Part shown: positions 10,401 through 36,535 of the stretch, piece after piece
How the letters are laid out: the number at the start of each line of letters is the position of its first letter
Numbering within the stretch: the stretch's first letter is position 1
Assembly: GCA_016931225.1 (NCBI GenBank)
Contig: JAFGFE010000017.1
Coordinates: 1-36,585, forward strand
From: Candidatus Zymogenaceae bacterium
GTDB taxonomy: Bacteria > Desulfobacterota > Zymogenia > Zymogenales > Zymogenaceae
Length of the DNA stretch: 36,585 bases
Direction: 5' to 3'
Notes under the pieces: generated by a model
Databases searched by the model: none
Told to the model about the DNA's origin: nothing
The model's input: the letters and a program-made list of their open reading frames with translations, nothing else
Program-made: the position numbers and the translations under genes

Positions 10401-11504
10401 TTATTTCAGCCCGTAGAGAAAGCCGTCGCTGCTTCCGAAGACGACGAGGCCGTCCCGGACCGCCGGGGATGAGCGGACTGTGTCTTCGGTGCGATAGACC
10501 CACAGCGGGGCGCCGTCCACGGCGGTGAAGGCGTAAAGCCCTCCGTCATCGGATCCGATATAGACGACACCTCCGGCCACCGCCGGAGAGGAGGAGACGG
10601 CGTCTCCGGTGGTCTGCTGCCACGAGGATGCCCCAGTCTTCGCATCCACGGCGTAGAGGACGCCGTTGTCGCAGCCGATGAACACGAGTCCACCCGACAC
10701 CGCCGGGGACGAGCGGATTTTTTCTCCGGCCTCAAAGCGCCATTTCGACATGCCGGTGCGGGCGTCCAGGGCGTAGAGACAGCCGTCGTCGCTACCGAAG
10801 TAGATCACGTTATCCACTACCGCCGGGGACGAGTGGACGCCCCCCTCGGTTGCGAAACGCCATTTTTCAATACCGGTGGCCGCGTCCACGGCGTATATAT
10901 GGTCGTCCATGCTCCCGAAAAAGACAATCCCGCCGGCGACGGCCGGGGACGACCTCACGTCACCCTCGGTTTTGAACCGCCACTTTTCCATGCCGGTGGC
11001 GGCCTCCACGGCGTAGAGGAAGTCGTCATTGCTGCCGAAATAGACGACGTCGTTTTCCACCACCGGGGAGGAGAGCACATTTCCCTCGGTCTTGAACCGC
11101 CATTTTTCAAGTCCCGTATCTTTGTCGAGGGCGTAGAAATATTCATCCTCACAGCCGAAAAACACGAAATCCCCCGCCTTGGCTGGAGATGAGGAAATAT
11201 CATCCTCGGCCCGGAAGCGCCATGTGGTGACGCCGGTGTGTGCATTGATGGCGTAGAGGTGATCGTCATCGCTTCCCACGTACACGACACCGGCCCAGAT
11301 CGCCGGGGTCGAAACGATCTCGCCGTCGGCCCGGGCCTTCCAGAGCACATCCCTGACATCGGTGACACCCCGGTCGTCATAATAGCCGCTGTGATTCGGC
11401 CTGTTTCGGAACATGGAACCGATAGACGTCAGGGGGTCTCCGAAGACCGCCGGCGGTGCCAGGGTGAGCGCCAGGGCGGCGAGAAAAAGACACAATCGTT
11501 TCAT
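10401..11504 (-). CDS. secreted PQQ-like eight-repeat beta-propeller protein
   Basis: A 367-residue precursor with a signal peptide (MKRLCLFLAALALTLAPPAV, cleavage near FG-DP). It is followed by an almost uninterrupted run of eight units of 40 residues, each reading approximately SSPAV-x2-G-x-V-x-FGS-x-D-x2-LYA-x-D-x2-TG-x3-WRF. The last unit is partial and ends at YGLK. The N-terminal strand DVLWKARADG probably closes the eighth blade. The fold is the PQQ/BamB-type propeller; there is no lipoprotein cysteine and no catalytic PQQ-dehydrogenase motif, so a binding or scaffold role outside the inner membrane is likelier than catalysis. GGGAG precedes the ATG. It is probably co-transcribed with the small membrane protein 59 bases upstream. 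Confidence 0.9.
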   Translation of the reverse strand: MKRLCLFLAALALTLAPPAVFGDPLTSIGSMFRNRPNHSGYYDDRGVTDVRDVLWKARADGEIVSTPAIWAGVVYVGSDDDHLYAINAHTGVTTWRFRAEDDISSSPAKAGDFVFFGCEDEYFYALDKDTGLEKWRFKTEGNVLSSPVVENDVVYFGSNDDFLYAVEAATGMEKWRFKTEGDVRSSPAVAGGIVFFGSMDDHIYAVDAATGIEKWRFATEGGVHSSPAVVDNVIYFGSDDGCLYALDARTGMSKWRFEAGEKIRSSPAVSGGLVFIGCDNGVLYAVDAKTGASSWQQTTGDAVSSSPAVAGGVVYIGSDDGGLYAFTAVDGAPLWVYRTEDTVRSSPAVRDGLVVFGSSDGFLYGLK

Positions 11505-11882: not shown

Positions 11883-11919
11883 TTAAAAAAAACGGGAAGC
11901 GCTCATGCGCTTCCCGTTT
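11883..11919 (-). terminator. terminator of the thiolase operon
   Basis: A 13-bp stem (AAACGGGAAGCGC at 11890-11902 and its complement at 11907-11919) with a TCAT loop. On the minus strand it is followed by eight T residues. It lies 22 bases after the thiolase stop codon. Confidence 0.9.
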
Positions 11920-11940: not shown

Positions 11941-13143
11941 TTATTTTCCGACGATCGCAACCGAGCAGACGCTCATGGCGGGGAATCCGCCCAGGTTGTG
12001 GGTCAGGCCCAGCTTGGGATCCTTAATCTGACGATCACCGGCACGGCCGTTGAGCTGCAGGTACATCTCATAGAGCATACGGATGCCCGAAGCCCCAATG
12101 GGATGACCGAAGCACTTGAGACCGCCGTCGGGCTGGCAGGGTATCTTCCCGCTCAGCTCGTAAAAACCGTCGTTGATGTCGTCGATGGCCTTTCCCCTGG
12201 GGGATATCTGCAAATCCTCGTAGGTGGCGAGCTCCGTGATGGAGAAGCAGTCGTGCACTTCCATCATGCTCAGCTCTTCCCTCGGTTTTTTGATGCCCGC
12301 CTCGGCGAAGGCTTTCTGGCCGGCCCTGTAGGTGGTTTCCACGTGGGCGCCGTCCCAGTCGGTGTACCACATCTCCTCGCCGGATGTGATGGCGATCTGC
12401 AGCGCCTTGACCAGCACCGGGTCGGTGTTGGGTTTCAGCTTCTTGGCGATTTCCGGGGTGGTAACGATGGCGGCGGCGGCTCCGTCGGACACGCCGCAAC
12501 AGTCGAACAGTCCCAGGGGCCACGCGATCATCGGCGCGTTCATGACCTGATCCACGGTCACCGCTTTTTGCAGGTGAGCCTTGGGATTCAGGGCGCCGTT
12601 TGCATGGCTCTTGGCGGAAATCTTCGCCAGAGCCGTCTTCAGGTCGTCCGGGCTGACGCCGTATTTTGCCATGTAGCCGGTGGCCATCAGGGCGAAGGAG
12701 CCGGGGGCCGTGGCGTTGGGCATGAAGAGACGGAAAAACGTCCCCATGGCGGTGCCGAAGTCCGGCAGACCGCCGTAGCCGGTGTCTTTCAGTTTCTCGG
12801 CGCCCAGGGCCAGGGCGATGTCGCAGGCCCCTGCGGCGACGGCGTAGACCGCGCCCCGGAAAGCCTCGGTGCCGCTGGCGCAGAAGTTTTCCACACGGGT
12901 GGCGCCGATAAAGGGGAGTTTGAGGGTCATGGGGAGGGTGATGGCGCTCTTGCCGACGTTGACCTCGTCAAAGCAGGAGCCGAACCAGGACGCTTCGATG
13001 TCTTTTTTCTCGATGCCCGCATCCTCCATGGCCTCCAAATACGCTTCGACGATCAGGTCCTCTTCGGACATGTCCCATCGTTCCCCGAACTTGGTGCATC
13101 CCATTCCCAGGATGGCCACCTTATCTTTAATACCGCTTGGCAT
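11941..13143 (-). CDS. thiolase of the SCP2/SCPx type
   Basis: A 400-residue thiolase-fold acyltransferase of normal length. The nucleophile is C88 in NFCASGTEA. The two active-site histidines are H297 in HDCFSITE and H347 in GHPIGASG, and the chain ends with the SCP2-type HNLGGFPAMSVCSVAI. The HDCF motif and the single internal Cys place it with SCPx/lipid-transfer-like thiolases rather than FadA or AtoB. Such thiolases cleave or form 3-ketoacyl-CoA and often need a DUF35 (Zn-ribbon/OB-fold) partner; here the preceding gene carries a DUF35 module. GGAGG lies seven bases before the ATG. Second gene of a two-gene operon, 32 bases after its partner. The natural acyl-CoA is unknown. Confidence 0.92.
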   Translation of the reverse strand: MPSGIKDKVAILGMGCTKFGERWDMSEEDLIVEAYLEAMEDAGIEKKDIEASWFGSCFDEVNVGKSAITLPMTLKLPFIGATRVENFCASGTEAFRGAVYAVAAGACDIALALGAEKLKDTGYGGLPDFGTAMGTFFRLFMPNATAPGSFALMATGYMAKYGVSPDDLKTALAKISAKSHANGALNPKAHLQKAVTVDQVMNAPMIAWPLGLFDCCGVSDGAAAAIVTTPEIAKKLKPNTDPVLVKALQIAITSGEEMWYTDWDGAHVETTYRAGQKAFAEAGIKKPREELSMMEVHDCFSITELATYEDLQISPRGKAIDDINDGFYELSGKIPCQPDGGLKCFGHPIGASGIRMLYEMYLQLNGRAGDRQIKDPKLGLTHNLGGFPAMSVCSVAIVGK

Positions 13144-13175: not shown

Positions 13176-14627
13176 CTATTCGATCACCGGAACGATCTTC
13201 CAGAAGTAGCCGGAGATGCCCCGCTTCGGGTCATAGTACTTCCTGCGGAAGCTCATCTTGGTTTTCATACCGACCTTGAGGTCTTCGATCTTGCAGTCGG
13301 TGAGGTCTGTCCAGAGTGTACCGCCGCCCTTGAAGCGGGTGATGCCATATACCTGAGGCGGATCGAAGGAGAACGCAAGCATGTCGCCGGTGTAGGAGAA
13401 GAGTGTGCCTTCCTTGTCGGAAAAGCGGTAGTCTTCTGTTTTGTCCACGGCGCCGCAGTCTGGATTGACGCAGATGCGCTGGGGCGGGAACTGGGGCGTG
13501 TTACACTCGGTGCACTTGGTGCCCACCAGTCCGAAAACAGCCTTGCGCTTGCGCCACAGGGTGGAGAATGCCGTCCAGGCCGAGTCCTCGCCCCGGATGC
13601 CCAACTCCATGGGGATGATGTCCCGAAAGACCGCGTATTTTTCGTACGGGGCCAGATCGGCCTTGTACTCCAGCGATCCCTTGATGCCGGAGATGCCCTT
13701 GAGCTTCTTGATGTTGTCGGTCACCTCGAACAGGAGGGCGTCGCAACCGCTGCCGAAACTCGCCATAATGATCTTGTCTCCGGGCTTCGCTTCCTGCAGA
13801 GCGCTGACCATCATCACCAGGGGATGGGCCGTTCCGGTGTCTCCGCAGACGTCGTGCATGTTCGGATGGATGGCCTCGGCGGAGATGCCCACCAATGTTG
13901 CGAGCTTGCCGTGATCCCGGCCGAAATAGCAGGGATAGACGACCCGATTGATTGCCTCGGGCTTCGTTTTGGTCTTTTCCAACAATCCCTTCAGCACCTG
14001 GGGGATGAACTTGCTGTAGCCCATGTCCCTGATCCAGCGCTCTTCCCAGGTTCTGTCGAAGGGGGCGTCTTCGGATCGGAAATGATCGACGAAGTCAAAG
14101 GATACCGAGTAGGAACCCTTGAATTCGGCAACCACGTCCTTGTTGCCAAGGACAAGACAGGCGGCGCCGTCGCCGTAGAACTGCTCGACCATGCTGCCCA
14201 TCCTACCCATTCGGTAGTCGGCGGCGCTTACCATGATGTTGTTGGCCTCGCCCGCCTTGACGGCGTCCAGGGCCGCGATGGTGGCCGTGGTGCCGGACTT
14301 GACCGCCTCGGTAAAATCGGCCACCCTCACATCCTCCCTGAGATCCAGCGCTGCCGCGGCAATGGCGGCGCAGGAGCGTTCCTTGTAGGGAAGGGTTGTG
14401 GAGGCAAGGTAAATCCCGTCGATTTTGTCGCGGCCGATGCCGTTAAGGGCGTCAATACCTGCGGCCACGGCCATGCTCAGGGAGTCTTCGTCGTAGTTTG
14501 CAACCGACTTTTCACCCCGTGCCACAGCGATCGTTACCGGATTGAACCAGCCCATGGCTCCGAAAATTGTGCCGCGATTGATTCTGTACCTCGGAATGTA
14601 ACCTCCGAAAGATGTAATTCCAACCAT
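13176..14627 (-). CDS. HMG-CoA synthase-like protein fused to DUF35 Zn-ribbon/OB-fold, lacking the catalytic Cys
   Basis: A 483-residue protein. Residues 1-345 form a thiolase-fold domain of the HMG-CoA synthase type. A four-cysteine Zn ribbon follows (C372, C375, C386, C391), then an OB-fold (about 397-475), together a DUF35 module. In true HMG-CoA synthases the nucleophile sits in an A-C-K-A-G-T-like motif near residue 111. Here the motif reads EAVKSGTTAT and the position is V109 (GTC codon at 14301-14303). It therefore cannot form the acyl-enzyme in the usual way. With a thiolase next in the operon it may act as an acyl-CoA-binding or structural subunit, as in archaeal thiolase/HMGCS/DUF35 assemblies. 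GGAG precedes the ATG. A different catalytic residue cannot be excluded. Confidence 0.88.
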   Translation of the reverse strand: MVGITSFGGYIPRYRINRGTIFGAMGWFNPVTIAVARGEKSVANYDEDSLSMAVAAGIDALNGIGRDKIDGIYLASTTLPYKERSCAAIAAAALDLREDVRVADFTEAVKSGTTATIAALDAVKAGEANNIMVSAADYRMGRMGSMVEQFYGDGAACLVLGNKDVVAEFKGSYSVSFDFVDHFRSEDAPFDRTWEERWIRDMGYSKFIPQVLKGLLEKTKTKPEAINRVVYPCYFGRDHGKLATLVGISAEAIHPNMHDVCGDTGTAHPLVMMVSALQEAKPGDKIIMASFGSGCDALLFEVTDNIKKLKGISGIKGSLEYKADLAPYEKYAVFRDIIPMELGIRGEDSAWTAFSTLWRKRKAVFGLVGTKCTECNTPQFPPQRICVNPDCGAVDKTEDYRFSDKEGTLFSYTGDMLAFSFDPPQVYGITRFKGGGTLWTDLTDCKIEDLKVGMKTKMSFRRKYYDPKRGISGYFWKIVPVIE

Positions 14628-14822: not shown

Positions 14823-14851
14823 TTTTTAGTATATGTAGTGTCTTTTGTCAA
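14823..14851 (-). promoter_or_regulatory. promoter of the HMGCS-like/thiolase operon
   Basis: On the minus strand, TTGACA (complement of 14846-14851), 17 bases and TAAAAA (complement of 14823-14828). The -35 is perfect, the -10 moderate. It is divergent from the TetR-gene promoter. Confidence 0.55.
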
Positions 14852-14899
14852 GTCTTTTCTTGTAAAGAATTTGCCTAATGATATTTATCACTTGACAAA
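14844..14899. promoter_or_regulatory. candidate TetR operator region between divergent promoters
   Basis: Two elements lie between the back-to-back promoters. One is the inverted pair TTTGTCAAG (14844-14852) and CTTGACAAA (14891-14899), which includes both -35 boxes. The other is the 13-bp palindrome TTCTT-GTA-AAGAA at 14857-14869, centred between them. A TetR dimer bound here would cover both promoters. Which element is the real operator cannot be decided by reading. Confidence 0.45.
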
Positions 14900-14921
14900 G
14901 GGATATGCGAATCAATATAAT
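14892..14921 (+). promoter_or_regulatory. promoter of the TetR-family gene
   Basis: Perfect TTGACA (14892-14897) and perfect TATAAT (14916-14921) with an 18-base spacer. The leader to 14972 is about 45 bases. Confidence 0.85.
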
Positions 14922-14971
14922 TGAGCATCGCTCGGAATGGTGGGATATTCCCGACTGAGATAGGGCTGAAA

Positions 14972-15697
14972 ATGAGTGAAAATACTACAAAAATGAATAG
15001 TATTCAAAAAGGGATTAAAGGTGTTACCAAGAACCTGAAGAAAAACCGGGAAGGCGGGGACAAGCGCGAGCGGATTCTGGCGGCGGCGGAGAAAATCTTT
15101 GCGGATAAGGGATATTTCGAAACCACCATTTCTGAAATAGCCCGGGAGGCGCAGGTTGCAGAAGGAACAATATACGATTACTTCGCCAACAAGAAAGATC
15201 TCCTGTACGCCGTGCCGGAGCGATCTTCCGTCGAATATGCGGAATTTGCCCTCAATCACCTCCAGGGCATCAAGGGGGCGGTCAATAAACTGAGAAAAAT
15301 CATCTGGTGTCACCTCTATTACTTCCGTCTGCACCGACACTTTACGAAAATCATGACCCTTGAAATCAGGATCGATCCCGACTACTTCGAGTGCAAGACC
15401 TATGAAAATCTCAAGCTCTACTCCGATCTCATTCTCACCATTGTGGAGGAGGGGATACGGGACGGGGAGATTTCCTCGCAGGTCAATCCGCATGTCGTCA
15501 GAGACATGATTTTCGGAACCATCGAGCACACCCTGATTCCCTGGCTGGTCTTTGACCGGGAAATACCCATTGATGACCTTGTGGAAGATATCTCCAATGT
15601 GATATTCTCGGGACTTGCCCCCCGGGAAAAAGTGCTCAGAGTTAACATTAACGAACTGGTATCGGGGCTGGATACCGCGGAAATTGTCGAGAAGTAG
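14972..15697 (+). CDS. TetR-family transcriptional regulator
   Basis: A 241-residue regulator with an unusually long, basic N-terminal extension (about 1-28) before the TetR helix-turn-helix. The HTH region is typical: RERILAAAEKIFADKGYFET, then ISEIAREAQVAEGTIYDYFANKKDLL. The ligand domain (about 85-230) is divergent, as expected for this family. The open frame begins at a TTG inside the -10 box, so the ATG at 14972 is preferred; its ribosome-binding site is weak. It is divergent from the HMGCS-like/thiolase operon and followed at 53 bases by MaoC genes. It therefore probably senses an acyl-CoA and controls both arms, like other TetR regulators of beta-oxidation. The ligand is unknown. Confidence 0.9.
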   Translation: MSENTTKMNSIQKGIKGVTKNLKKNREGGDKRERILAAAEKIFADKGYFETTISEIAREAQVAEGTIYDYFANKKDLLYAVPERSSVEYAEFALNHLQGIKGAVNKLRKIIWCHLYYFRLHRHFTKIMTLEIRIDPDYFECKTYENLKLYSDLILTIVEEGIRDGEISSQVNPHVVRDMIFGTIEHTLIPWLVFDREIPIDDLVEDISNVIFSGLAPREKVLRVNINELVSGLDTAEIVEK

Positions 15698-15750: not shown

Positions 15751-16224
15751 ATGTCAGACAAATCGATGATAGGGAATGCGTTCGAACCATTCGTGTTCGA
15801 AGTAGAGAAGGGGAAAATTTCGGAATTCGCTCTTGCGGTTTTCCAGAAGGAAGGGAAGGAACAGGTCGACCAGATCTACGTCGACTCGGTTGCGGCCAAG
15901 AAGGAGGGATATAAGGATATCGTATCCCCCCCCACATTCCAGACCTGTTTCGCCCTGTGGGGCGGCGGCGGACTGATGCCCATGATCACCGCCCTGAACA
16001 TCAACCTGGGCCGGCTGCTCCACGGCGAGGAGGAGTATGAATACCTGGCGCCGGTACATCCCGGTGACGTTATCACCTGCCAGACAAAGGTGAAGGACGT
16101 ATACGAAAAAGAGAAAAAGAACAAGCCGGGCAAGTTCATGGAGTTTACCGTGCTTGAAACTGAAATGAAAAACCAGAAGGGCGAGGTCGTGATCAAGGCC
16201 CGCTCAACCCTGGTTGAGAGATAG
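15751..16224 (+). CDS. MaoC-like (FAS1-type) dehydratase/hydratase subunit
   Basis: A 157-residue hotdog-fold protein of the MaoC N-terminal/FAS1-like dehydratase group. The pattern of an N-terminal FEPFVFEVEKGKISEFA helix, the central SPPTFQTCFALWGG and the later EYLAPVHPGDVITCQTKV is characteristic. It lacks the D-x-N-P-x-H active-site motif, which its neighbour has, so the two probably form a heterodimer in which this one binds the acyl chain, as in HadAB-like hydratases. AAAGGAGG precedes the ATG. It is followed after nine bases by the catalytic MaoC gene, so the two are translated together. Acts on a CoA thioester in the cytoplasm; chain specificity unknown. Confidence 0.85.
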   Translation: MSDKSMIGNAFEPFVFEVEKGKISEFALAVFQKEGKEQVDQIYVDSVAAKKEGYKDIVSPPTFQTCFALWGGGGLMPMITALNINLGRLLHGEEEYEYLAPVHPGDVITCQTKVKDVYEKEKKNKPGKFMEFTVLETEMKNQKGEVVIKARSTLVER

Positions 16225-16233
16225 GAGGGAACA

Positions 16234-16683
16234 ATGGCAAAAGAACTCTACTATGACGATGTAAACGTCGGCGATGAAATGCCGTCGTTCACCTCTGATC
16301 CGATCAACAGGACGCACCTGGTGCGCTATGCCGGTGCCTCCGGAGACTTCAACCCCCTGCATCATGACAATACCTTCGTTGCAATGTTCGGGATGGAGCG
16401 GGTCATCTCCCACGGCATGCTGGTGATGGGCATTACCGGCAGGGCCATTACCGATTGGGTACCCCAAAAATACATGAAGAGCTTCAAGGTGCGCTTTGCC
16501 GGCATGACCGAGCCGTGTGACCTGAACGACATGGAGAACACCTCCGCACGGGCCACCCTGACGGTGACCGGTAAGGTTATTGAGAAAACAGGCGACCAGA
16601 TAGTCTGCGAGATACAGACCGCGGACGCATTGGGCGGCGTCAAGATCACCGGAACATTTTCCGCGGCGCTTCCCAAGAAGTAA
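16234..16683 (+). CDS. MaoC-family (R)-specific enoyl-CoA hydratase, catalytic subunit
   Basis: A 149-residue hotdog-fold hydratase with the full hydratase-2 motif YAGASGDFNPLHHD, giving the catalytic pair D38 and H43 with N40, followed by the conserved SHGMLVMGITGRAI. Such enzymes hydrate trans-2-enoyl-CoA to (R)-3-hydroxyacyl-CoA. The ribosome-binding site AGGAGG overlaps the end of the preceding gene, nine bases before this ATG, and the two subunits are probably made in equal amounts. An SDR dehydrogenase 146 bases downstream would take its (R)-hydroxy product. Substrate length or branching is not readable. Confidence 0.92.
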   Translation: MAKELYYDDVNVGDEMPSFTSDPINRTHLVRYAGASGDFNPLHHDNTFVAMFGMERVISHGMLVMGITGRAITDWVPQKYMKSFKVRFAGMTEPCDLNDMENTSARATLTVTGKVIEKTGDQIVCEIQTADALGGVKITGTFSAALPKK

Positions 16684-16829: not shown

Positions 16830-17741
16830 ATGGCCGATATCTCTTTTGACGGTCGCGTGGCAATCGTAACCGGTGCCGGCGCGGGTCTGGGTAGAACGTA
16901 CGCCCTGGAACTGGGCAAGCGGGGCTGCAAGGTGGTGGTGAACGACCTGGGCGGCGCCCGTGACGGTACGGGCGGCAGCAAGGGCGCGGCTGATATGGTG
17001 GTCGATGAAATCAAGGCCGCCGGCGGCGAAGCGGCCCCGAATTATGACAACGTCTCTACCATCGAAGGCGGAAAGAACATCGTCAAGACCGCCGTGGACA
17101 ACTTCGGCAAGGTTGACATCGTCATTAACAACGCCGGTATCCTCAGGGACAAGAGCTTTGTCAAGATGGAAGAGGAGAACTGGGACGCCGTAGTGGCGGT
17201 GCATCTGAGGGGCGCATTTTGCGTGACCCAGCCCGCCTTCGCAATCATGCGGGAAAACAATTTTGGTCGCGTGGTTCTGACCACATCCGGTGCCGGTCTC
17301 TACGGTAACTTCGGTCAGACCAACTACTGTTCGGCGAAGATGGGCCTCATCGGTTTTCAGAACGCTCTGAAAATTGAGGGCGCCAAGTACAACGTCAAGG
17401 TGAACACCATCGCCCCGGTGGCGGCCTCCCGTCTGACCGAGGACGTGATGCCTCCGGAATTCTTCGAAAAACTCAAGCCCGAGTTTGTCACCCCGATGGT
17501 GGTGTACCTCGCCTCCGAGGCCTGCGAAGATTCCGGATTTATCTTCAACTGCGGCATGGGCTGGTACAGCCGGACCGCCATCATGATGGCAAAGGGAGCG
17601 CTCATTGGAGACGGTTCCCGTGAGATCAAGGCCGAGGAAATCAAGGACAACTGGAAAAAGATCATCTCCATGGACGAAGCGAAGGAAGTTGGAAGCGTCC
17701 AGGAGACCTTCGGCGAGATGATGCCGCTCATTCAGAAGTAG
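16830..17741 (+). CDS. SDR dehydrogenase of the MFE-2 (17-beta-HSD4) type
   Basis: A 303-residue short-chain dehydrogenase, longer than the usual 250. The NAD motif is TGAGAGLG (14-21), followed by NNAG at 100-103. The catalytic residues are S153, Y166 and K170 (TNYCSAK). Family-specific pieces identify it as the dehydrogenase part of multifunctional enzyme 2: the loop VVNDLGGARDGTGGSKGAAD, HLRGAF, SGAGLYGNFGQTNY and NTIAPVAASRLTEDVMPPEF. MFE-2 oxidises (R)-3-hydroxyacyl-CoA. In MFE-2 this domain is fused to two hotdog hydratase domains; here those are the two MaoC genes just upstream. GAGGAGG precedes the ATG. It ends its transcription unit with a hairpin. Specific substrate unknown, with branched or bulky acyl-CoA likely by analogy. 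Confidence 0.92.
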   Translation: MADISFDGRVAIVTGAGAGLGRTYALELGKRGCKVVVNDLGGARDGTGGSKGAADMVVDEIKAAGGEAAPNYDNVSTIEGGKNIVKTAVDNFGKVDIVINNAGILRDKSFVKMEEENWDAVVAVHLRGAFCVTQPAFAIMRENNFGRVVLTTSGAGLYGNFGQTNYCSAKMGLIGFQNALKIEGAKYNVKVNTIAPVAASRLTEDVMPPEFFEKLKPEFVTPMVVYLASEACEDSGFIFNCGMGWYSRTAIMMAKGALIGDGSREIKAEEIKDNWKKIISMDEAKEVGSVQETFGEMMPLIQK

Positions 17742-18522: not shown

Positions 18523-19674
18523 ATGTCACTGCTTGAAAAGTTGTATACCGAAGACCACAGAATTTACAGAGAAGCCCTGAGGAAGTACCTGGCTGACAAT
18601 GTCACACCGTACGCCGATCAATGGGAGGAAGAGGGGATTGTACCCCGGCAGGCGTGGAAGGATTTCGGCGCCCAGGGATTCCTGTGCTCCTGGCTGCCTG
18701 AGGAATACGGCGGCTCCGGAGTGGGTTTTGAGTATTCCGTTATCACCCTCGAGGAAATTTCCCGGACGAAGCAGTCCGGTTTCGCCGTGGGTCTCCACAG
18801 CGACGTGGTGGTTCCCTATCTCTACTCCTACGGCAGCGAGGAGCAAAAAAAGAAATGGCTCCCCAGCACCGCCACCGGGGATATCATCACCGCCGTCGCC
18901 ATGACGGAGCCGAATGCGGGGTCTGATCTTGCATCGATGAGGACCACCGCCATCAAGGAAGGCAACGAGTATGTCATCAACGGTCAGAAGACCTTCATCT
19001 CCAACGGTATCCTGTGCGATCTGTGCATAGTGGCCGCCAAGACCGATCCGAAGGCTGATCCACCGTATTCCGGCATCAGCCTGCTCGTGGTGGAGGACGG
19101 CACCCCGGGCTTTATCAAGGGACAGAAGTTCGACAAGGTCGGCATGAAGAGCCAGGACACTGCGGAGCTGTTCTTCGATGATTGCCGGGTGCCCGCAAGT
19201 AACCTTCTGGGCGAAGAGGGCGGCGGATTTAAGTACCTGATGGAGAAGCTCCAGCAGGAACGGCTGTTCGCCTCCTGGGGGTCCCAGGTGATGGCGGAAG
19301 TGGCCCTTGAGGTGACCATCGATTACTGCCGCAGCCGCGAGGCCTTCGGACGGCCGATCTCCAGATTCCAGCACAACTCCTTCAAGCTTGCGGAGATGGC
19401 CACTGATATCGAGCTGGGACGGACCTTCCTGGAGAAGCTGACGCTGGACCACATGGAGCATAAGGACGTCGTCAAGCAGGTATCGATGGCGAAATACTGG
19501 GTGTGCGAGATGGCCAACCGCATCGTACAGCAAGGCGTGCAGCTCCACGGCGGATACGGCTATATGGAGGAATACCTCATCGCACGACTCTTCCGGGATA
19601 TCAGGATCCATACCATCTACGCGGGTACGACCGAGGTCATGAAGCTCATCATCTCCCGCCTGATGGGCCTGTAA
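18523..19674 (+). CDS. acyl-CoA dehydrogenase, long-chain/isovaleryl type
   Basis: A 383-residue flavoprotein of standard acyl-CoA dehydrogenase length. It has the FAD and substrate motifs AMTEPNAGSDLASM (near 126-139), KTFISNG and QLHGGYGYMEEY. In short- and medium-chain enzymes the catalytic glutamate sits in a Y-E-G-T motif; here that motif is YAGTTEVMK with A367. The long-chain and isovaleryl types use a glutamate on helix G instead, and E246 in KLQQERLFA sits at that place. So it is catalytically complete but belongs to the helix-G-base class. A -RAGG-type Shine-Dalgarno precedes the ATG, and a strong terminator follows. It would make the 2-enoyl-CoA used by the nearby MaoC hydratase. 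Electron acceptor (ETF) genes are not in the window. Confidence 0.92.
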   Translation: MSLLEKLYTEDHRIYREALRKYLADNVTPYADQWEEEGIVPRQAWKDFGAQGFLCSWLPEEYGGSGVGFEYSVITLEEISRTKQSGFAVGLHSDVVVPYLYSYGSEEQKKKWLPSTATGDIITAVAMTEPNAGSDLASMRTTAIKEGNEYVINGQKTFISNGILCDLCIVAAKTDPKADPPYSGISLLVVEDGTPGFIKGQKFDKVGMKSQDTAELFFDDCRVPASNLLGEEGGGFKYLMEKLQQERLFASWGSQVMAEVALEVTIDYCRSREAFGRPISRFQHNSFKLAEMATDIELGRTFLEKLTLDHMEHKDVVKQVSMAKYWVCEMANRIVQQGVQLHGGYGYMEEYLIARLFRDIRIHTIYAGTTEVMKLIISRLMGL

Positions 19675-26450: not shown

Positions 26451-28154
26451 TTAAAATTCGTACCCGATGGAGAAGTTACCGCCGTAATTGAAACCGGAGG
26501 AGTCATATCCCCGGCTTCCGGCGCCACCCCAGGCCAGGGGATTGATGGCTCCCGCTCCCCCGGCGCTCGTCCCGCTCAGGTTGTAGGACTTCTTGTCGAG
26601 GGGAAATCTGGCGGAGCTGGAAAAAGAGATGTTCAGACGGTCAAAGGGGGAATAGGTCAGGCTGCCGCCGGCTGTGAGGTCGTGAAAGGTATCCCCGTCG
26701 TCGCCGCCGAACGTCAGTTCTCCGACGGTCAGCGGAGAGTTGTAGCTGACGTCGTATTGATAGTCACCCCATCCAAATCCGTACCCGACGCCCACATCAA
26801 AGGTGATGTCGTCGTTGACGCGGGCGGTCGCCCCCAGCTTGAGGGAGATCATATCCAGCTCTTCCTTCGTCCGCTCCTCAAACCACGCAGTGTAGGATCC
26901 TCCTCCAAAATCCTGGGTGCTATTATTTTCGAGATACTTGGTTTTGTTCTCCCAGTGGGTGTAGGTGATCAGGGAGTTGAGGGTTACTTTCGCCAGGGCG
27001 TAGTTCAGACCGGCGCCGCCGGTGGCGTGCCAGGTCTTCTCGTCGTTTTCATAGGTGATGGAGCCGGGTCCGTGATATATCCCGGCGTAGGCGTATGGGG
27101 CGAAAAATCCGGTGGTGGCGCCGTCGATCTCCCAGTTTTTGTCCGCATATGACCCGCTGCCGAGATAGGTCAGGGACAGCTCATCGGTCAGGAAAAACTC
27201 GGCGTCGGCCTCGGCGTTGTATCCGTATCCCTCGATATCGCCGTCGTCAAGGCGCTCCGAATATATGGTGTCGGCGGGGAGGGTTCCGTCATTGATGAAG
27301 TAGCTGTCGTACATCCTGGATTTCTTTTCCATGGTTCCCAGGTATAAATCCGCCGATCCCGACATATTCAGCGTGAAGCGATCGAAGGGCGTGATGGAAA
27401 CACCGATGGACGGTGACATGGTGTGCGTGTTGAATTCATACTCCCGGTCGATTTTAACATCCTCGAGGATTGCAAGTCCGACGAGACTTGACGTGGACCC
27501 GTTGACGTCATAATTCATGTTTTCATAGGAATAGAGGTATGTCAGCCCCGCACCCATGGAAAAGACGTCGCTTACATCCATGTCGTACAATAGGGTGAGT
27601 CCCTCGGTGTGGGCGTCGCGCCTCCTGGCCGTTTCGCCGGAAACCGTCATATTGCCGCCCGCTTCGCCATGCGACATGTCGAAATTACCGTACCCCATCG
27701 TGTTGTCGTAGCGATAGTGGATCAGGCCGCCGAAGCTGGAGATGTCGTTGAACCTTATGAGAAATCCGATGTCCGTGCCGGTGTTGTTTCCCACCACATT
27801 CTCGTCTGAATCGGAAGAAGACAAAAATCCTCCCACGAGGGAGTTGGTCATTTCATTCTCGAAATCGGTATAGCTCCCCTTGTAGAACATGCTGTAGATG
27901 AAGTAGTAGTTCTCCTGTAGGTTCAGAAGGGCCGGGTTCGATTCCCAGTTAGAATACCACTCCGACGGCGGGGTGCCGTAGGTATCCAATCCCTTGTTAT
28001 CCCACTCCGACGGCGGGGTGCCGAAGCTGTCTTTCGGTGTGTTGGCCAGGTTCGGTTCGATGAGGTGTGTCGATTCATCCACCGCGGCGGAAAGCGCCGG
28101 AAGGCAGACGAGCAGCACCAGCATCATCGAAAGAAGCCATAATCGCGATTTCAT
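26451..28154 (-). CDS. outer-membrane beta-barrel protein, tandem paralogue 1
   Basis: A 567-residue precursor with a signal peptide (about 1-23, ending LSAA). The mature N-terminus holds a doubled motif, FGTPPSEW at 44-51 and YGTPPSEW at 59-66, then NPALLNLQENYYFIYSMFYKGSYTDFENEM. The remaining 450 residues are alternating aromatic/hydrophobic beta strands of the outer-membrane barrel type, and the chain ends in the barrel-insertion signature GYEF with a terminal Phe. It is homologous along its whole length to the two genes upstream. I do not recognise a characterised family; it loosely resembles transport-type or OmpP1/FadL-like barrels. AGGAG precedes the ATG. It has its own promoter and terminator. 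The substrate is unknown. Confidence 0.85.
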   Translation of the reverse strand: MKSRLWLLSMMLVLLVCLPALSAAVDESTHLIEPNLANTPKDSFGTPPSEWDNKGLDTYGTPPSEWYSNWESNPALLNLQENYYFIYSMFYKGSYTDFENEMTNSLVGGFLSSSDSDENVVGNNTGTDIGFLIRFNDISSFGGLIHYRYDNTMGYGNFDMSHGEAGGNMTVSGETARRRDAHTEGLTLLYDMDVSDVFSMGAGLTYLYSYENMNYDVNGSTSSLVGLAILEDVKIDREYEFNTHTMSPSIGVSITPFDRFTLNMSGSADLYLGTMEKKSRMYDSYFINDGTLPADTIYSERLDDGDIEGYGYNAEADAEFFLTDELSLTYLGSGSYADKNWEIDGATTGFFAPYAYAGIYHGPGSITYENDEKTWHATGGAGLNYALAKVTLNSLITYTHWENKTKYLENNSTQDFGGGSYTAWFEERTKEELDMISLKLGATARVNDDITFDVGVGYGFGWGDYQYDVSYNSPLTVGELTFGGDDGDTFHDLTAGGSLTYSPFDRLNISFSSSARFPLDKKSYNLSGTSAGGAGAINPLAWGGAGSRGYDSSGFNYGGNFSIGYEF

Positions 28155-28193
28155 GGCACACTCCTATGGTCAATTCTATTATAATTTTCCACA

Positions 28194-28222
28194 TTATTAC
28201 ATTAAATAAAATAATATGTCAA
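28194..28222 (-). promoter_or_regulatory. promoter of outer-membrane paralogue 1
   Basis: On the minus strand, TTGACA (complement of 28217-28222), 17 bases and TAATAA (complement of 28194-28199). The AT-rich context matches the paralogue 2 promoter almost base for base. Confidence 0.8.
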
Positions 28223-28242
28223 GAATAATATAAAAAATATGA

Positions 28243-28260
28243 TAAATTAAGCTTAATTTA
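28243..28260. promoter_or_regulatory. 18-bp perfect palindrome upstream of the paralogue 1 promoter
   Basis: TAAATTAAGCTTAATTTA is a perfect palindrome 21 bases upstream of the -35. A related sequence, AATTAAGCATAATTT, lies upstream of paralogue 2 at about 30149-30163. A shared activator site is possible. Confidence 0.45.
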
Positions 28261-28291
28261 GTATAATTATGGTAATAAAACTGTTACTTAC

Positions 28292-28320
28292 AAAAAAAGG
28301 GAGGCGTATCGCGCCCCCCG
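28292..28320 (-). terminator. terminator of outer-membrane paralogue 2
   Basis: On the minus strand, GGGGGGCG, loop CGATA and CGCCTCCC (one G-T pair), followed by seven T residues (complement of 28292-28298). Confidence 0.85.
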
Positions 28321-28353
28321 TGTAACATGGATTGTATTTTGTTTTTGATGAAT

Positions 28354-30054
28354 TTAGAACTCGTATCCGATGGAAAGGGTGCCGCCGTAGTTCCAGGTGG
28401 AGGAGCCGTAATCCCTGATGGTATTTCCGCTCCATATGCTGATCGGAAGCCCTCCAGCGGTTGCGCCGTCGGTGGTGCCGGAGAGGTTATATTTCTTCTG
28501 ATTGAGAGGGAACTTACCCATGGCCGAGAGCGTGATATTCAAGTTATCGATTGGCCGGAAAACCATAGAGCTTCCCACGGTCATGTCATGAAACGTATCG
28601 GTATCCTTGGCGGCGGTGATGATCTCCGTGGTGCTGCCCGGCGAATAGATGGATTCATAGAGGTTGTACCGGCCCCATCCTACTGAATAGCCGACCCCGA
28701 AGTCCATGGAGAGGACTGGCGAGACATCAAAGGTCGCCCCTAACTTCAGGTTCATGATGTTCAGCTCTTCCTCGGTTCTCTGGGTAAAATTTGAAACCGG
28801 AACAACGGCAGCGAAATTGAACGTATTTTCCTGGTAGAAGGCAGTATCACGATTCCAGTAGGTATAGGTGATCAGGGAATGAAGAATTGCCCCGGATAGA
28901 TCATAGTTCATGCCCGCGCCGGCGGTGGCGTTCAAGGTTCGCTCTTCGGACTCATAATCCATCGTACCCGGTCCGCACAACAACCCATAATAATAAAACG
29001 GCAGAAAATATCCGTCAACGGCGCCGTCCACTTCCCAGCTCGTGTCGGTATACGATGCGTTTGCGAGATACGTCAGGGAGAGAGCGTCGGTCAGGAATAT
29101 CTCCGTGTCCGCTTCCCCGGAAAACCCGTAGCCGGAGAGGTTTCCGTCGTCGAGATGTTCCCGGTAATTAATGGGCGGAACGGCTACAGCGGTGTTCCAG
29201 TCGTACAAGCGCGAGTGTTTTTCAACCCCTCCGAAGAGGAAATCGGTGGTAAAGGAGACGTTCAGGATGAAGCTGTCTGTAGGGGTAAAAGACGTACCGA
29301 TAGTGGGGGAAATGCGATTAATATTGAAGATGGTCTCCCTGTCAATCTTCATTTCCTCATCAACGACCGCTCCAGTACTCACAATATCCACCGAATTCAC
29401 ATCGTAATTCGTGTTTTCGTTGGTGTACATGTAGGTGAGGTCGAAGCCGAGGGAAAACGCATCGCTGTAATCGATATCGTAGAGCAGCGTCAGCCCGGTG
29501 CTGTTGGCATCGGAGCGGCGTACGGATTCACTGGTCATGGCTATATACACTCCGGCACCGTTGCTTAATATCGTGGTGATATCGCCGTATCCGAGGATGC
29601 CGTCGTACCGGTAGTGAAGGATTGCGCCGAATGTGGAGATGTCGTTGAACTTCATCAGGAAGCCAAGGTCGGTCCCAGCGCTGTTGCCGGCGTATTCTTC
29701 TGTCGTCTCTGCATATGAACCTCCGACACCGCCGGTGAAGGCCTGATACATATCGGTCTCGAATTCGTTGAAGCTCCCCATGTAGAACATGCTGGCGATA
29801 AAGGCGTAGTTGCTCTGGAGATCCACCAGGGCTGGATTATCCCGCCAGGTGGAATACCACTCAGACGGCGGAATGCCGTACGTCTGAGTGTCGGTCTTGT
29901 TCCACTCGGACGGGGGGGTGCCGAAGGCGTCCTTCGGGTTGTTGAAGCTGTTCGGCTCCTCGAGGTGGATCGAGTCCCCCGCGAGGCCAATAAGCGGCGT
30001 ACACACGAGTACAGCAACGACGCCGATGATCAGGACATAGTTTTTCACACGCAT
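28354..30054 (-). CDS. outer-membrane beta-barrel protein, tandem paralogue 2
   Basis: A 566-residue precursor, one residue shorter than paralogue 1 and in the same register. Signal peptide about 1-25 (ending LIGLAG). FGTPPSEW is at 44-51 and YGIPPSEW at 59-66, followed by NPALVDLQSNYAFIASMFYMG. Barrel strands run to the final Phe of GYEF. Shared internal blocks include STGLTLLYDIDYSDAFSLG, SPTIGTSFTPTDSF and TDALSLTYLANASY. GGAG is six bases before the ATG. The close matching length and motifs indicate a recent tandem duplication. As a separate unit with its own terminator it could be expressed differently from its neighbours. Function unknown; a porin or hydrophobic-substrate channel is possible. 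Confidence 0.85.
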   Translation of the reverse strand: MRVKNYVLIIGVVAVLVCTPLIGLAGDSIHLEEPNSFNNPKDAFGTPPSEWNKTDTQTYGIPPSEWYSTWRDNPALVDLQSNYAFIASMFYMGSFNEFETDMYQAFTGGVGGSYAETTEEYAGNSAGTDLGFLMKFNDISTFGAILHYRYDGILGYGDITTILSNGAGVYIAMTSESVRRSDANSTGLTLLYDIDYSDAFSLGFDLTYMYTNENTNYDVNSVDIVSTGAVVDEEMKIDRETIFNINRISPTIGTSFTPTDSFILNVSFTTDFLFGGVEKHSRLYDWNTAVAVPPINYREHLDDGNLSGYGFSGEADTEIFLTDALSLTYLANASYTDTSWEVDGAVDGYFLPFYYYGLLCGPGTMDYESEERTLNATAGAGMNYDLSGAILHSLITYTYWNRDTAFYQENTFNFAAVVPVSNFTQRTEEELNIMNLKLGATFDVSPVLSMDFGVGYSVGWGRYNLYESIYSPGSTTEIITAAKDTDTFHDMTVGSSMVFRPIDNLNITLSAMGKFPLNQKKYNLSGTTDGATAGGLPISIWSGNTIRDYGSSTWNYGGTLSIGYEF

Positions 30055-30087
30055 GACATGCTCCGTAAAAACACTATTTTTTACACA

Positions 30088-30116
30088 TTATTACATAAAA
30101 TATAATATTATGTCAA
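30088..30116 (-). promoter_or_regulatory. promoter of outer-membrane paralogue 2
   Basis: On the minus strand, TTGACA (complement of 30111-30116), 17 bases and TAATAA (complement of 30088-30093). Nearly identical to the paralogue 1 promoter. Confidence 0.8.
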
Positions 30117-30189
30117 GAATAATATATTAAATAAGTCAAGTTATACATAATTAAGCATAATTTTAAACCAAATTACTGGTTTTCAGCGT

Positions 30190-30215
30190 AAAAAAAGGGG
30201 GCGAAGCCCCCCTTT
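30190..30215 (-). terminator. terminator of outer-membrane paralogue 3
   Basis: A GC stem (AAGGGGGC/GCCCCCCTT) with a GAA loop. On the minus strand it is followed by seven T residues. Confidence 0.8.
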
Positions 30216-30239
30216 CTAATTAGTTCTTTAGAGTGCGGG

Positions 30240-31952
30240 CTAAAATCGGTACTCGATGGAGAGATTCCCGCCGTAGTTCCAGGTGGAGATTTCGGAATCC
30301 AGGGAAAAATCTCCCTGCAAACCGGATGCCGGGTTTCCGTTTATCATACTGCCGTCTAGGGGATAGCTCTTGCCGTCTAGGGGAAAGGCGCCCATGGCCG
30401 AGAGGGTAATATTCAAATTTTCCATCGGCGTGATGATCATGGAGACCGCCGCGCTCAGCTCATGAAAGGTGTCGGTTTCGTTGAGGAGGATGAACAATCC
30501 ATCTTGAAAGGAAGAATCCCATGAGTGAATATATTCATAGTAGTCGTAGTCTCCCCATCCCACGGAATAGCCCAGTCCGAAGTCCATTGATATAGCGGAC
30601 GAGACGTCCAGAGTCGTCCCCAGCTTCAGGGTGAGGATATCCAGCTCCTCGCCTGTCCGCTGGGTGAAAATCGAGTGCGGCACTCCGGAAATGGGCGTGG
30701 TGAAGAGATTCTCCATGTAATAGGCGGTATCCCGCTCCCAGCGGGTGTAAGTGAGAAGTGAGTGGAGGGCGACCTTCGACAGGGCGTAGTTCATGCCGAC
30801 ACCGAAGGTGGTATGCCAGGTGTGCTCCTCGTACTCGTATTCATTCGTGCCGGGTGCCAGATGCAAACAGCTTTTATAATTGTCCGGATCGAACCACCCG
30901 GACACGTCTCCGTCGATATCCCAGCTCGTTTCGAGATACGACCCGCAAAGAAGGAGGCTCAGGGAGAGGGCGTCGGTGAGAAATATCTCGGCGTCCGCCT
31001 CCGCCGTGATGCCGTAGCCGGAGAGGCCCCCGCCGTCCAGTCGCTCACGATAATCCAAGGGGTTGGTTGGCAGACCATTGGTGCGGTCGGCCGCGTCCAT
31101 GTTTTTTTCGACCTCGCCGAAGATGATGTCCGTGGTGACGGCCAGGTTCAGGCTGAAGGTGTTACTGGGGGTAAAGGACGCGCCAACGGTGGGGGAAAGC
31201 CTGTGGGTAGTGAAGACGGTCTCCCTGGCGGTTCTTTCACTTTCTCTTCGGATAATGACTCCAGAACCGTCAAAGGTGATTTCCTTCATGTTCACAGTAT
31301 TATTCGTGCTCTCACTGGTGAACAGATAGGTGAGATCGAGGCCCAGGGAGAAGGTGTCGCTGAAATTGAGATCGTACAGCAGCGTCAGGCCCGTGCTGTG
31401 AGCGTCGGACCGGTGTTCGGAATCGACGTAAGAAAAAATCGCATCAGGAAGAAGAGGCCGCAATCTATATATCAAGGAGTCCCCCTCGCCCAGCATGCCG
31501 TCATATCGATAATGCAAGAGACCTCCAAGAGTGGCGGAGTCGGAGAGGGCCATCAGGAATCCCAGGTCTGTCCCAGTGCTGTTGCCGATGTATTCTTCGC
31601 TGATATCACTGGTTCTCAGACCGACGGCAAGGGCATTGACCTTATACATATCGGCTGAAAAATCGCTGTAGCTGCCCGAGTAGAACATGGATGAGATGAA
31701 AACAAAATCACCCTGGAGCTCCACCAGGGCGGGATTGTCCTGCCAGGTGGAGTACCACTCCGATGGTGAGACGCCGTAGGTCCGGGTGTCGGTCTTGTTC
31801 CAATCCGAAGGGGACCCGCGGAATATGTCCTTGGAGCTGTTGTAGAAGTTCAGCTCCTCCAGATGCATCGCGTCTCCCGCGAGGCTCGTGAGGGGTAGAA
31901 CGGCCAGTAGAATTACAAAGACGAAAACCATGGGAAATCTTCTTTTACACAT
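30240..31952 (-). CDS. outer-membrane beta-barrel protein, tandem paralogue 3
   Basis: A 570-residue precursor homologous to the two genes downstream but more diverged. The doubled motif is degenerate (FRGSPSDW and YGVSPSEW), followed by the well-kept WQDNPALVELQGDFVFISSMFYSG. It ends in EYRF with the terminal aromatic residue. Signal peptide about 1-26 from the chosen start (ending LTSLAG). An ATG at 31964 is in frame, but its first bases form the GAGG that serves as ribosome-binding site for the ATG at 31952, so 31952 is preferred. It has its own promoter. Function unknown; the divergence suggests it is the oldest copy or under different selection. Confidence 0.82.
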   Translation of the reverse strand: MCKRRFPMVFVFVILLAVLPLTSLAGDAMHLEELNFYNSSKDIFRGSPSDWNKTDTRTYGVSPSEWYSTWQDNPALVELQGDFVFISSMFYSGSYSDFSADMYKVNALAVGLRTSDISEEYIGNSTGTDLGFLMALSDSATLGGLLHYRYDGMLGEGDSLIYRLRPLLPDAIFSYVDSEHRSDAHSTGLTLLYDLNFSDTFSLGLDLTYLFTSESTNNTVNMKEITFDGSGVIIRRESERTARETVFTTHRLSPTVGASFTPSNTFSLNLAVTTDIIFGEVEKNMDAADRTNGLPTNPLDYRERLDGGGLSGYGITAEADAEIFLTDALSLSLLLCGSYLETSWDIDGDVSGWFDPDNYKSCLHLAPGTNEYEYEEHTWHTTFGVGMNYALSKVALHSLLTYTRWERDTAYYMENLFTTPISGVPHSIFTQRTGEELDILTLKLGTTLDVSSAISMDFGLGYSVGWGDYDYYEYIHSWDSSFQDGLFILLNETDTFHELSAAVSMIITPMENLNITLSAMGAFPLDGKSYPLDGSMINGNPASGLQGDFSLDSEISTWNYGGNLSIEYRF

Positions 31953-31982
31953 ACAAATCCTCATAAAAAGTTCTTCTCGGTA

Positions 31983-35799: not shown

Positions 35800-35839
35800 T
35801 AAGCAATTATCCAGAACGTGATATTTGAGGAATACCGGG

Positions 35840-36535
35840 ATGACAAAGCCGACATTTTCCCAGAGGAAGGGCCTGGAGCCGCTCGAAAGAGGGATGCAAA
35901 TCGAATCGATGGATGAACGGCTCAGAAATGGGTTGTGGAATTGTTTGCTTGGATTTTCAGGCTATTTACGAACGAGTTTGTATAATTTTGACTTTGATCA
36001 CAAAAGATTAGGAGAGGAATTCGATAGAATAAATAATGCAGTCATTAGAGGCTTTTGGAGTGTTTTTTTTGGGAATCGTTTAAATGAAATGAGACAACAT
36101 ACAATTTTCCCATATCAATTCGAAGATTATTTTAATTCTCTAGATTGGAACAAGGTATATGATTTTTTTGAATATTTTCTTGAACTGCTTGAATCATATG
36201 TGGAAACAGATGTAATAGAGATGCAGTCAAATTGTATAAATTCTGTTTTAAAACGAGAAAACTCCGTTTATAGGCTTGTAAATGGAATTTTTACACCAAT
36301 TACAGATAAATTGGAAAGAGAAGCGATTGAAGAAGCATCAAGCGAACAAGATCCATTTATTGGACCATCGATACATATCAAGAAGGCACAAAAATTACTT
36401 TCAGACCGGGAGTCTCCCGACTATCACAACTCCATAAAGGAGTCCATCAGCGCCATTGAGAGCATGTGTCGGATAATTACAAAACAAAAGAAGAAAACAT
36501 TATCTGCCCTAGTCACTAAAAGTGTTGACAGGTGA
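35840..36535 (+). CDS. AbiJ_NTD4-like protein, probably 3'-truncated
   Basis: A 231-residue protein that starts like the AbiJ N-terminal domain 4 group: FSQRKGLEPLERGMQIESMDERLRNGLWN, then aromatic-rich helices and the KAQKLLSDRESPDYHNSIKESISAIESMCRIIT block. In this family the last block normally leads into a HEPN-type C-terminal domain of about 60-80 more residues. Here the chain stops 20 residues later at TKSVDR, so it looks broken, and the next 50 bases do not continue the domain. The open frame begins with a TTG at 35825, but GAGGAA there serves as ribosome-binding site for the ATG at 35840. From about 35950 the DNA is visibly AT-rich, unlike its neighbours, which suggests horizontal transfer. 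A phage-defence role is inferred from the family. Confidence 0.65.
   Translation: MTKPTFSQRKGLEPLERGMQIESMDERLRNGLWNCLLGFSGYLRTSLYNFDFDHKRLGEEFDRINNAVIRGFWSVFFGNRLNEMRQHTIFPYQFEDYFNSLDWNKVYDFFEYFLELLESYVETDVIEMQSNCINSVLKRENSVYRLVNGIFTPITDKLEREAIEEASSEQDPFIGPSIHIKKAQKLLSDRESPDYHNSIKESISAIESMCRIITKQKKKTLSALVTKSVDR

Follow-up and report, generated by a model that had tools for sequence, protein, structure and literature searches.

The locus and its genes

The window analysed here, a stretch of 36,585 nucleotides from Candidatus Zymogenaceae bacterium (contig JAFGFE010000017.1 of assembly GCA_016931225.1), contains on its reverse strand an open reading frame (13176–14627, −) for a protein of 483 aa. 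An archaeal-type HMG-CoA synthase (HMGCS) fold, residues 1–340, is joined in this protein to a complete DUF35 module (about residues 356–483). Residues 1–338 resemble archaeal HMG-CoA synthase models, with scores that stay under the curated thresholds: the best NCBIfam model is the one for hydroxymethylglutaryl-CoA synthase (PRK04262; 204 bits at a cut-off of 244 bits), and TIGR00748 gives 154 bits where 353 are required. Residues 366–461 match the ChsH2/DUF35 zinc ribbon (PF12172; 26.7 bits, gathering score 23.2) and OB-fold (PF01796; 32.5 bits, gathering score 27.1), with the ribbon cysteines C372, C375, C386 and C391 being encoded at 13455–13514 (−). The AlphaFold2 model of the protein (pLDDT 92.3, pTM 0.93) shows an HMGCS/KAS III fold for residues 1–340, which superimpose over 334 aa on the HMG-CoA synthase of Methanothermococcus (6esq_I) with a Z-score of 47.0 and an rmsd of 1.8 Å. 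Further fold matches of this part were PhlA (Z 44–45) and MucABC (Z 41.6).

In the alignment with 6esq_I, whose nucleophile motif reads A-C-K-A-G-T, V109 occupies the column of the nucleophilic cysteine, T77 (14397–14399, −) that of the catalytic glutamate and P232 (13932–13934, −) that of the catalytic histidine, the codon positions of the latter two being computed from the reading frame. The same three residues again stand opposite Glu, Cys and His in an alignment with the Staphylococcus enzyme (T77 and P232 were placed with 6esq_I and 1tvz). The DNA itself reads acc-gag-gcg-gtc-aag-tcc-ggc-acc (T-E-A-V-K-S-G-T), with V109 encoded by GTC at 14303–14301 (14301–14303, −). A first-pass annotation of this DNA had proposed that the synthase is dead because valine replaces its nucleophile, and that a zinc ribbon and OB-fold are attached to its C-terminus. 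Both statements were confirmed, and the loss goes further than claimed: with all three columns filled by other residues, the protein lacks the whole Glu-Cys-His triad of a catalytic HMG-CoA synthase and not the cysteine alone.

Directly downstream and in the same direction lies a gene for an SCP2-type thiolase (11941–13143, −). As had been stated before, it is intact, carrying the nucleophile C88, the HDCF motif (H297–C299) and the GHP motif (H347). A terminator-like hairpin with a 13-bp stem and a T tail (11890–11919, −), identified by consensus match only, follows the thiolase gene and may close the two genes as one unit. The divergent strand encodes a TetR-family, FadR-like regulator (14921–15697, +; below the NCBIfam cut-off), a HadA-like hot-dog subunit of the FAS1_DH/MFE-2 hydratase-2 N type (15751–16224, +), a HadB-like, MaoC-type R-specific hydratase subunit (16234–16683, +), a short-chain dehydrogenase (SDR; 16830–17741, +), an acyl-CoA dehydrogenase (18523–19674, +) and also a phosphoesterase. 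A perfect 10-bp inverted repeat, TTTGTCAAGT...ACTTGACAAA, is found between the two strands' genes at 14844–14899 and is a possible operator; its right arm overlaps a promoter (14892–14921) with 12 of 12 sigma-70 consensus positions at the start of the TetR gene.

Several other features were observed in the window. Three paralogues in tandem (26451–31964, −; 567, 566 and 574 aa), the first being 44–49% identical to the others, have a signal-like N-terminus and a C-terminal Phe and show no Pfam match; they look like outer-membrane beta-barrels. They adjoin a reading frame without any match and two M28 peptidases. A highly repetitive PQQ-type beta-propeller protein (10401–11504, −) is similar to the propeller of ACSF4, and at the window edge (35825–36535, +) an AbiJ_NTD4 protein, which also matches the PADLOC candidate PDC-S32, is a candidate anti-phage gene.

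Within the genome, TIGR00748 at E ≤ 1e-10 matched only the 483-aa protein, so that no canonical HMG-CoA synthase was found elsewhere. As DsrA had no match in the genome either, sulfate reduction is not claimed for this organism. A second DUF35 gene of the same genome (contig C34:4895–5191) is unfused and has an adjoining thiolase of its own, which is 31% identical to the thiolase of the window; this pair resembles the Bbs/Ltp type.

Loss of the catalytic residues across the family

Homologues were collected from 59 relatives, 395 genomes of the phylum, a GTDB contig collection (at least 558 confirmed relatives, of which 80 were kept for analysis) and samples of Actinomycetota (match in 38 of 246 genomes) and Chloroflexota. 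The two resulting sets (n = 147 and n = 66) combine to 185 distinct DUF35-fused proteins, which span Desulfobacterota, Chloroflexota, Actinomycetota and other groups. Not one of them has a cysteine in the nucleophile column (0/147 and 0/66), where L, Q, I, T, V, M, S, A, P or E is found instead. Glu, Cys and His are missing together in 147/147 homologues, and the zinc-ribbon cysteines are invariant (146/146). As a positive control, unfused canonical HMG-CoA synthases from Chloroflexota showed E/C/H in the same columns in 18 of 18 cases. The consistent lack of the cysteine excludes chance or a sequencing error, and the possibility, raised in the first-pass annotation, that close homologues keep the cysteine and the valine is an isolated error fell away. 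Taken from the sequences, catalytic death of the HMGCS part is thus supported as a trait of the family.

Apart from the 18 controls, three unfused proteins without the cysteine were present in the alignment. One (L207) is a fused protein cut by the end of its contig. In the other two loci, L150 (299–2934, −) and L161, DUF35, a Cys-less HMGCS-like protein and a thiolase are encoded by three consecutive separate genes, the HMGCS-like one in the middle, which is likely an intermediate architecture. No reading frame among the 147 homologues fuses the HMGCS part to the thiolase. Long Actinomycetota reading frames of 971, 745 and 648 aa contain no further Pfam domain and are probably just open frames. 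The canonical synthases of Chloroflexota (L217–L234), with their triad intact, have in most cases a thiolase gene directly downstream, which suggests that an archaeal-type complex is probably present in these bacteria too.

In a maximum-likelihood tree the cysteine status requires one change, on a branch with a support of 100/99; one change also suffices in all 200 bootstrap trees. PhlA and MucA fall on the Cys-less side. There they form a group apart from the fused family (support 100/97). As the root of the tree is not fixed, the tree makes a single loss the most parsimonious interpretation but does not prove it.

The thiolase gene is located directly downstream of the fusion gene in 131 of 147 homologue loci. 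Contig edges cut off most of the remaining loci; L095 and L132 truly lack this neighbour. The catalytic residues of these thiolases are invariant (C88 131/131, H297 123/123, C299 122/122, H347 120/120), and at each of the 130 paired loci sequence conservation is higher for the thiolase (median identity 67%) than for its fused neighbour (52%). Both observations imply that the chemistry most likely resides in the thiolase.

An SDR domain follows DUF35 in the same chain in 35 of the 147 homologues, and the separate SDR of the window is 54–73% identical to it. Of five such proteins analysed with Pfam, four additionally end in an SCP2 domain. The preceding gene was a large SDR-containing reading frame in 16 of the 18 SDR-fused loci with enough upstream sequence; in three cases examined it encodes hydratase 2, SDR and SCP2, the same domains as in peroxisomal MFE-2 but in a different order. 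Desulfosarcina alkanivorans has both forms of the fusion protein (L076 and L111). As hydratases and SDR lie on the opposite strand in the window, their coupling to the fusion gene is given there by divergent neighbourhood only. The fusions in homologues tie the SDR of the window to the complex by an argument that is independent of the one made in the first-pass annotation.

Comparison with known complexes

The first-pass annotation knew of no description of a dead synthase with DUF35 as partner of a thiolase. As a general claim of novelty, this is not supported. In the acyltransferase PpATase (PhlACB) of Pseudomonas, the HMGCS-like subunit PhlA has neither the cysteine (Gly115) nor the glutamate (aligned with Cys83), the DUF35 protein PhlB mediates the binding of PhlA and PhlC dimers, bound phloroglucinol is contacted by residues of PhlC only, and PhlA and PhlB are thought to be necessary for a properly formed complex (PMC6392133). 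With its Cys/Glu-less HMGCS-like subunit, DUF35 protein and thiolase-fold catalytic subunit, PhlACB (P. protegens, PDB 5m3k and 5mg5; Chromobacterium homologue 9skh) has the same three components as are encoded at the locus described here, and PhlA is the top PDB match by sequence for the HMGCS part. Unlike the window protein, in which HMGCS part and DUF35 are one chain, PhlACB consists of three separate proteins; it C-acylates phloroglucinols without CoA, and PhlC is much diverged from thiolases, whereas the thiolase of the window keeps all thiolytic motifs. MucABC of Streptococcus macacae (9vbo) likewise combines an HMGCS-fold subunit without the cysteine with a thiolase-like partner, but it is a natural-product acyltransferase with separate subunits and is distant from the window protein (24% identity). 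A complex of dead HMGCS, DUF35 and thiolase is hence known from PhlACB and, by structure, from MucABC, and the principle is not new. What stood of the earlier interpretation is the dead synthase as a family trait, its fusion to DUF35 and its tie to an intact thiolase.

The archaeal complex (6esq) is built from the same three folds; the HMGCS part is structurally closest to its synthase (Z 47), and DUF35 has its best sequence match there too. That synthase is active (Glu82, Cys114), whereas the window protein lacks E, C and H and has DUF35 fused. In benzoylsuccinyl-CoA thiolase BbsAB (7pxp) and the Ltp2/Sal-DUF35 aldolases (6ok1, 9myr), which belong to pathways resembling beta-oxidation, an enzyme of the thiolase fold likewise has DUF35 as its partner; this DUF35 is either a free protein or attached to a MaoC domain, and no HMGCS-like subunit is present. 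Provisionally, the new elements are the single-chain HMGCS-DUF35 protein, the full residue set of its partner thiolase, the MFE-2-like beta-oxidation context, the SDR and SCP2 extensions and the breadth across phyla. A literature search, with most subscription journals outside its scope, yielded no description of this fused beta-oxidation form.

Proposed role and alternatives

The catalytic loss across many bacteria together with the nearly constant intact thiolase neighbour makes it most likely that the fusion protein is a built-in scaffold of that thiolase. With a probability of about 0.72 we regard the 483-aa protein as a non-catalytic subunit that serves as scaffold and CoA site in a thiolase complex for R-specific, MFE-2/SCP2-like beta-oxidation. 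The HMGCS-fold part and DUF35 would take the places of archaeal HMG-CoA synthase and DUF35, and of PhlA and PhlB. The subunit would dimerise, its DUF35 would clamp a dimer of the adjacent thiolase, and it might help to shape the CoA/acyl pocket and the pocket entrance, while C88, H297, C299 and H347 of the thiolase would perform all C–C chemistry, namely thiolytic cleavage of 3-oxoacyl-CoA. Together with the divergently encoded MaoC hydratases, SDR and acyl-CoA dehydrogenase, the complex would serve R-specific beta-oxidation, a role suggested by the gene neighbourhood and the fusions. Physical complex, pocket role, pathway direction and substrate are all proposed from the genes present and by analogy to PhlACB and the archaeal complex. 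In relatives, the fused SDR (often with SCP2) would keep dehydrogenase and thiolase together. A tentative and so far rather doubtful extension is a beta-oxidation metabolon of anaerobes, with the pseudo-HMGCS as a hub joining thiolase, DUF35, R-specific SDR and SCP2 carrier; the dehydrogenase would then hand 3-oxoacyl-CoA on to the thiolase via a CoA site common to both, in a prokaryotic counterpart of peroxisomal MFE-2/SCPx.

An enzyme of a different kind, a C-acyltransferase that works without CoA or makes natural products in the manner of PhlACB or MucABC, would have the identical three-part plan, and PhlA is the closest solved relative of the HMGCS part by sequence, with MucABC also among the closest. 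Nevertheless, the partner thiolase is far nearer to archaeal acetoacetyl-CoA thiolase (E 1e-54) and BbsB (E 1e-48) than to PhlC (E 7e-17) and retains the HDCF and GHP motifs, acyl-CoA dehydrogenase, R-hydratases and SDR are encoded nearby, and the fused family branches apart from PhlA and MucA, which renders this alternative unlikely. Operation in the synthetic direction, by thiolase condensation, SDR and hydratase towards branched or long acyl chains, appears slightly less improbable. Thiolases, R-hydratases and SDRs are reversible, and the neighbours show similarity to HadA/HadB and FabG; the acyl-CoA dehydrogenase and FadR-like regulator of the cluster and the MFE-2-like fusions in relatives, on the other hand, argue for degradation.

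It is similarly improbable as for the C-acyltransferase that the HMGCS part is still catalytic with other residues, for example in aldol/retro-aldol chemistry or in an acyl transfer that uses C233 or C108, two cysteines close to the former active site. C233, beside the former histidine, is a cysteine in 116/147 homologues and C108 in 15/147, but no substitute nucleophile is conserved in residues 1–340 of the aligned homologues: no Cys or His is kept family-wide (C233 is lost in 31/147 and the best histidine, H182, in 39/147), and position 109 drifts. The polar residues R15, E47, D48, D104, E148, E195 and R197 are nearly invariant, and acyl-CoA binding or another chemistry is conceivable for the dead domain. 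That a genuine HMG-CoA synthase was misread through an alignment slip or a sequencing error, for which the best NCBIfam model might speak despite its score under the cut-off, has a negligible probability in view of 185 distinct homologues without the cysteine, of 18 controls keeping it in the same column and of the additional loss of Glu and His.

The preferred reading, a scaffold of the thiolase, has consequences for genome annotation. Since HMG-CoA synthase models give them their highest scores, these proteins can pass for enzymes of ketogenesis or the mevalonate pathway in genome-based reconstructions, and they would be better annotated as non-catalytic partners of thiolase. If the complex is real, a synthase was turned into a scaffold, most simply once, with acyltransferases (PhlACB, MucABC) and beta-oxidation complexes as its descendants. 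The complex would then also point to a way, open to experiment, in which anaerobes carry out R-specific, MFE-2-like beta-oxidation.
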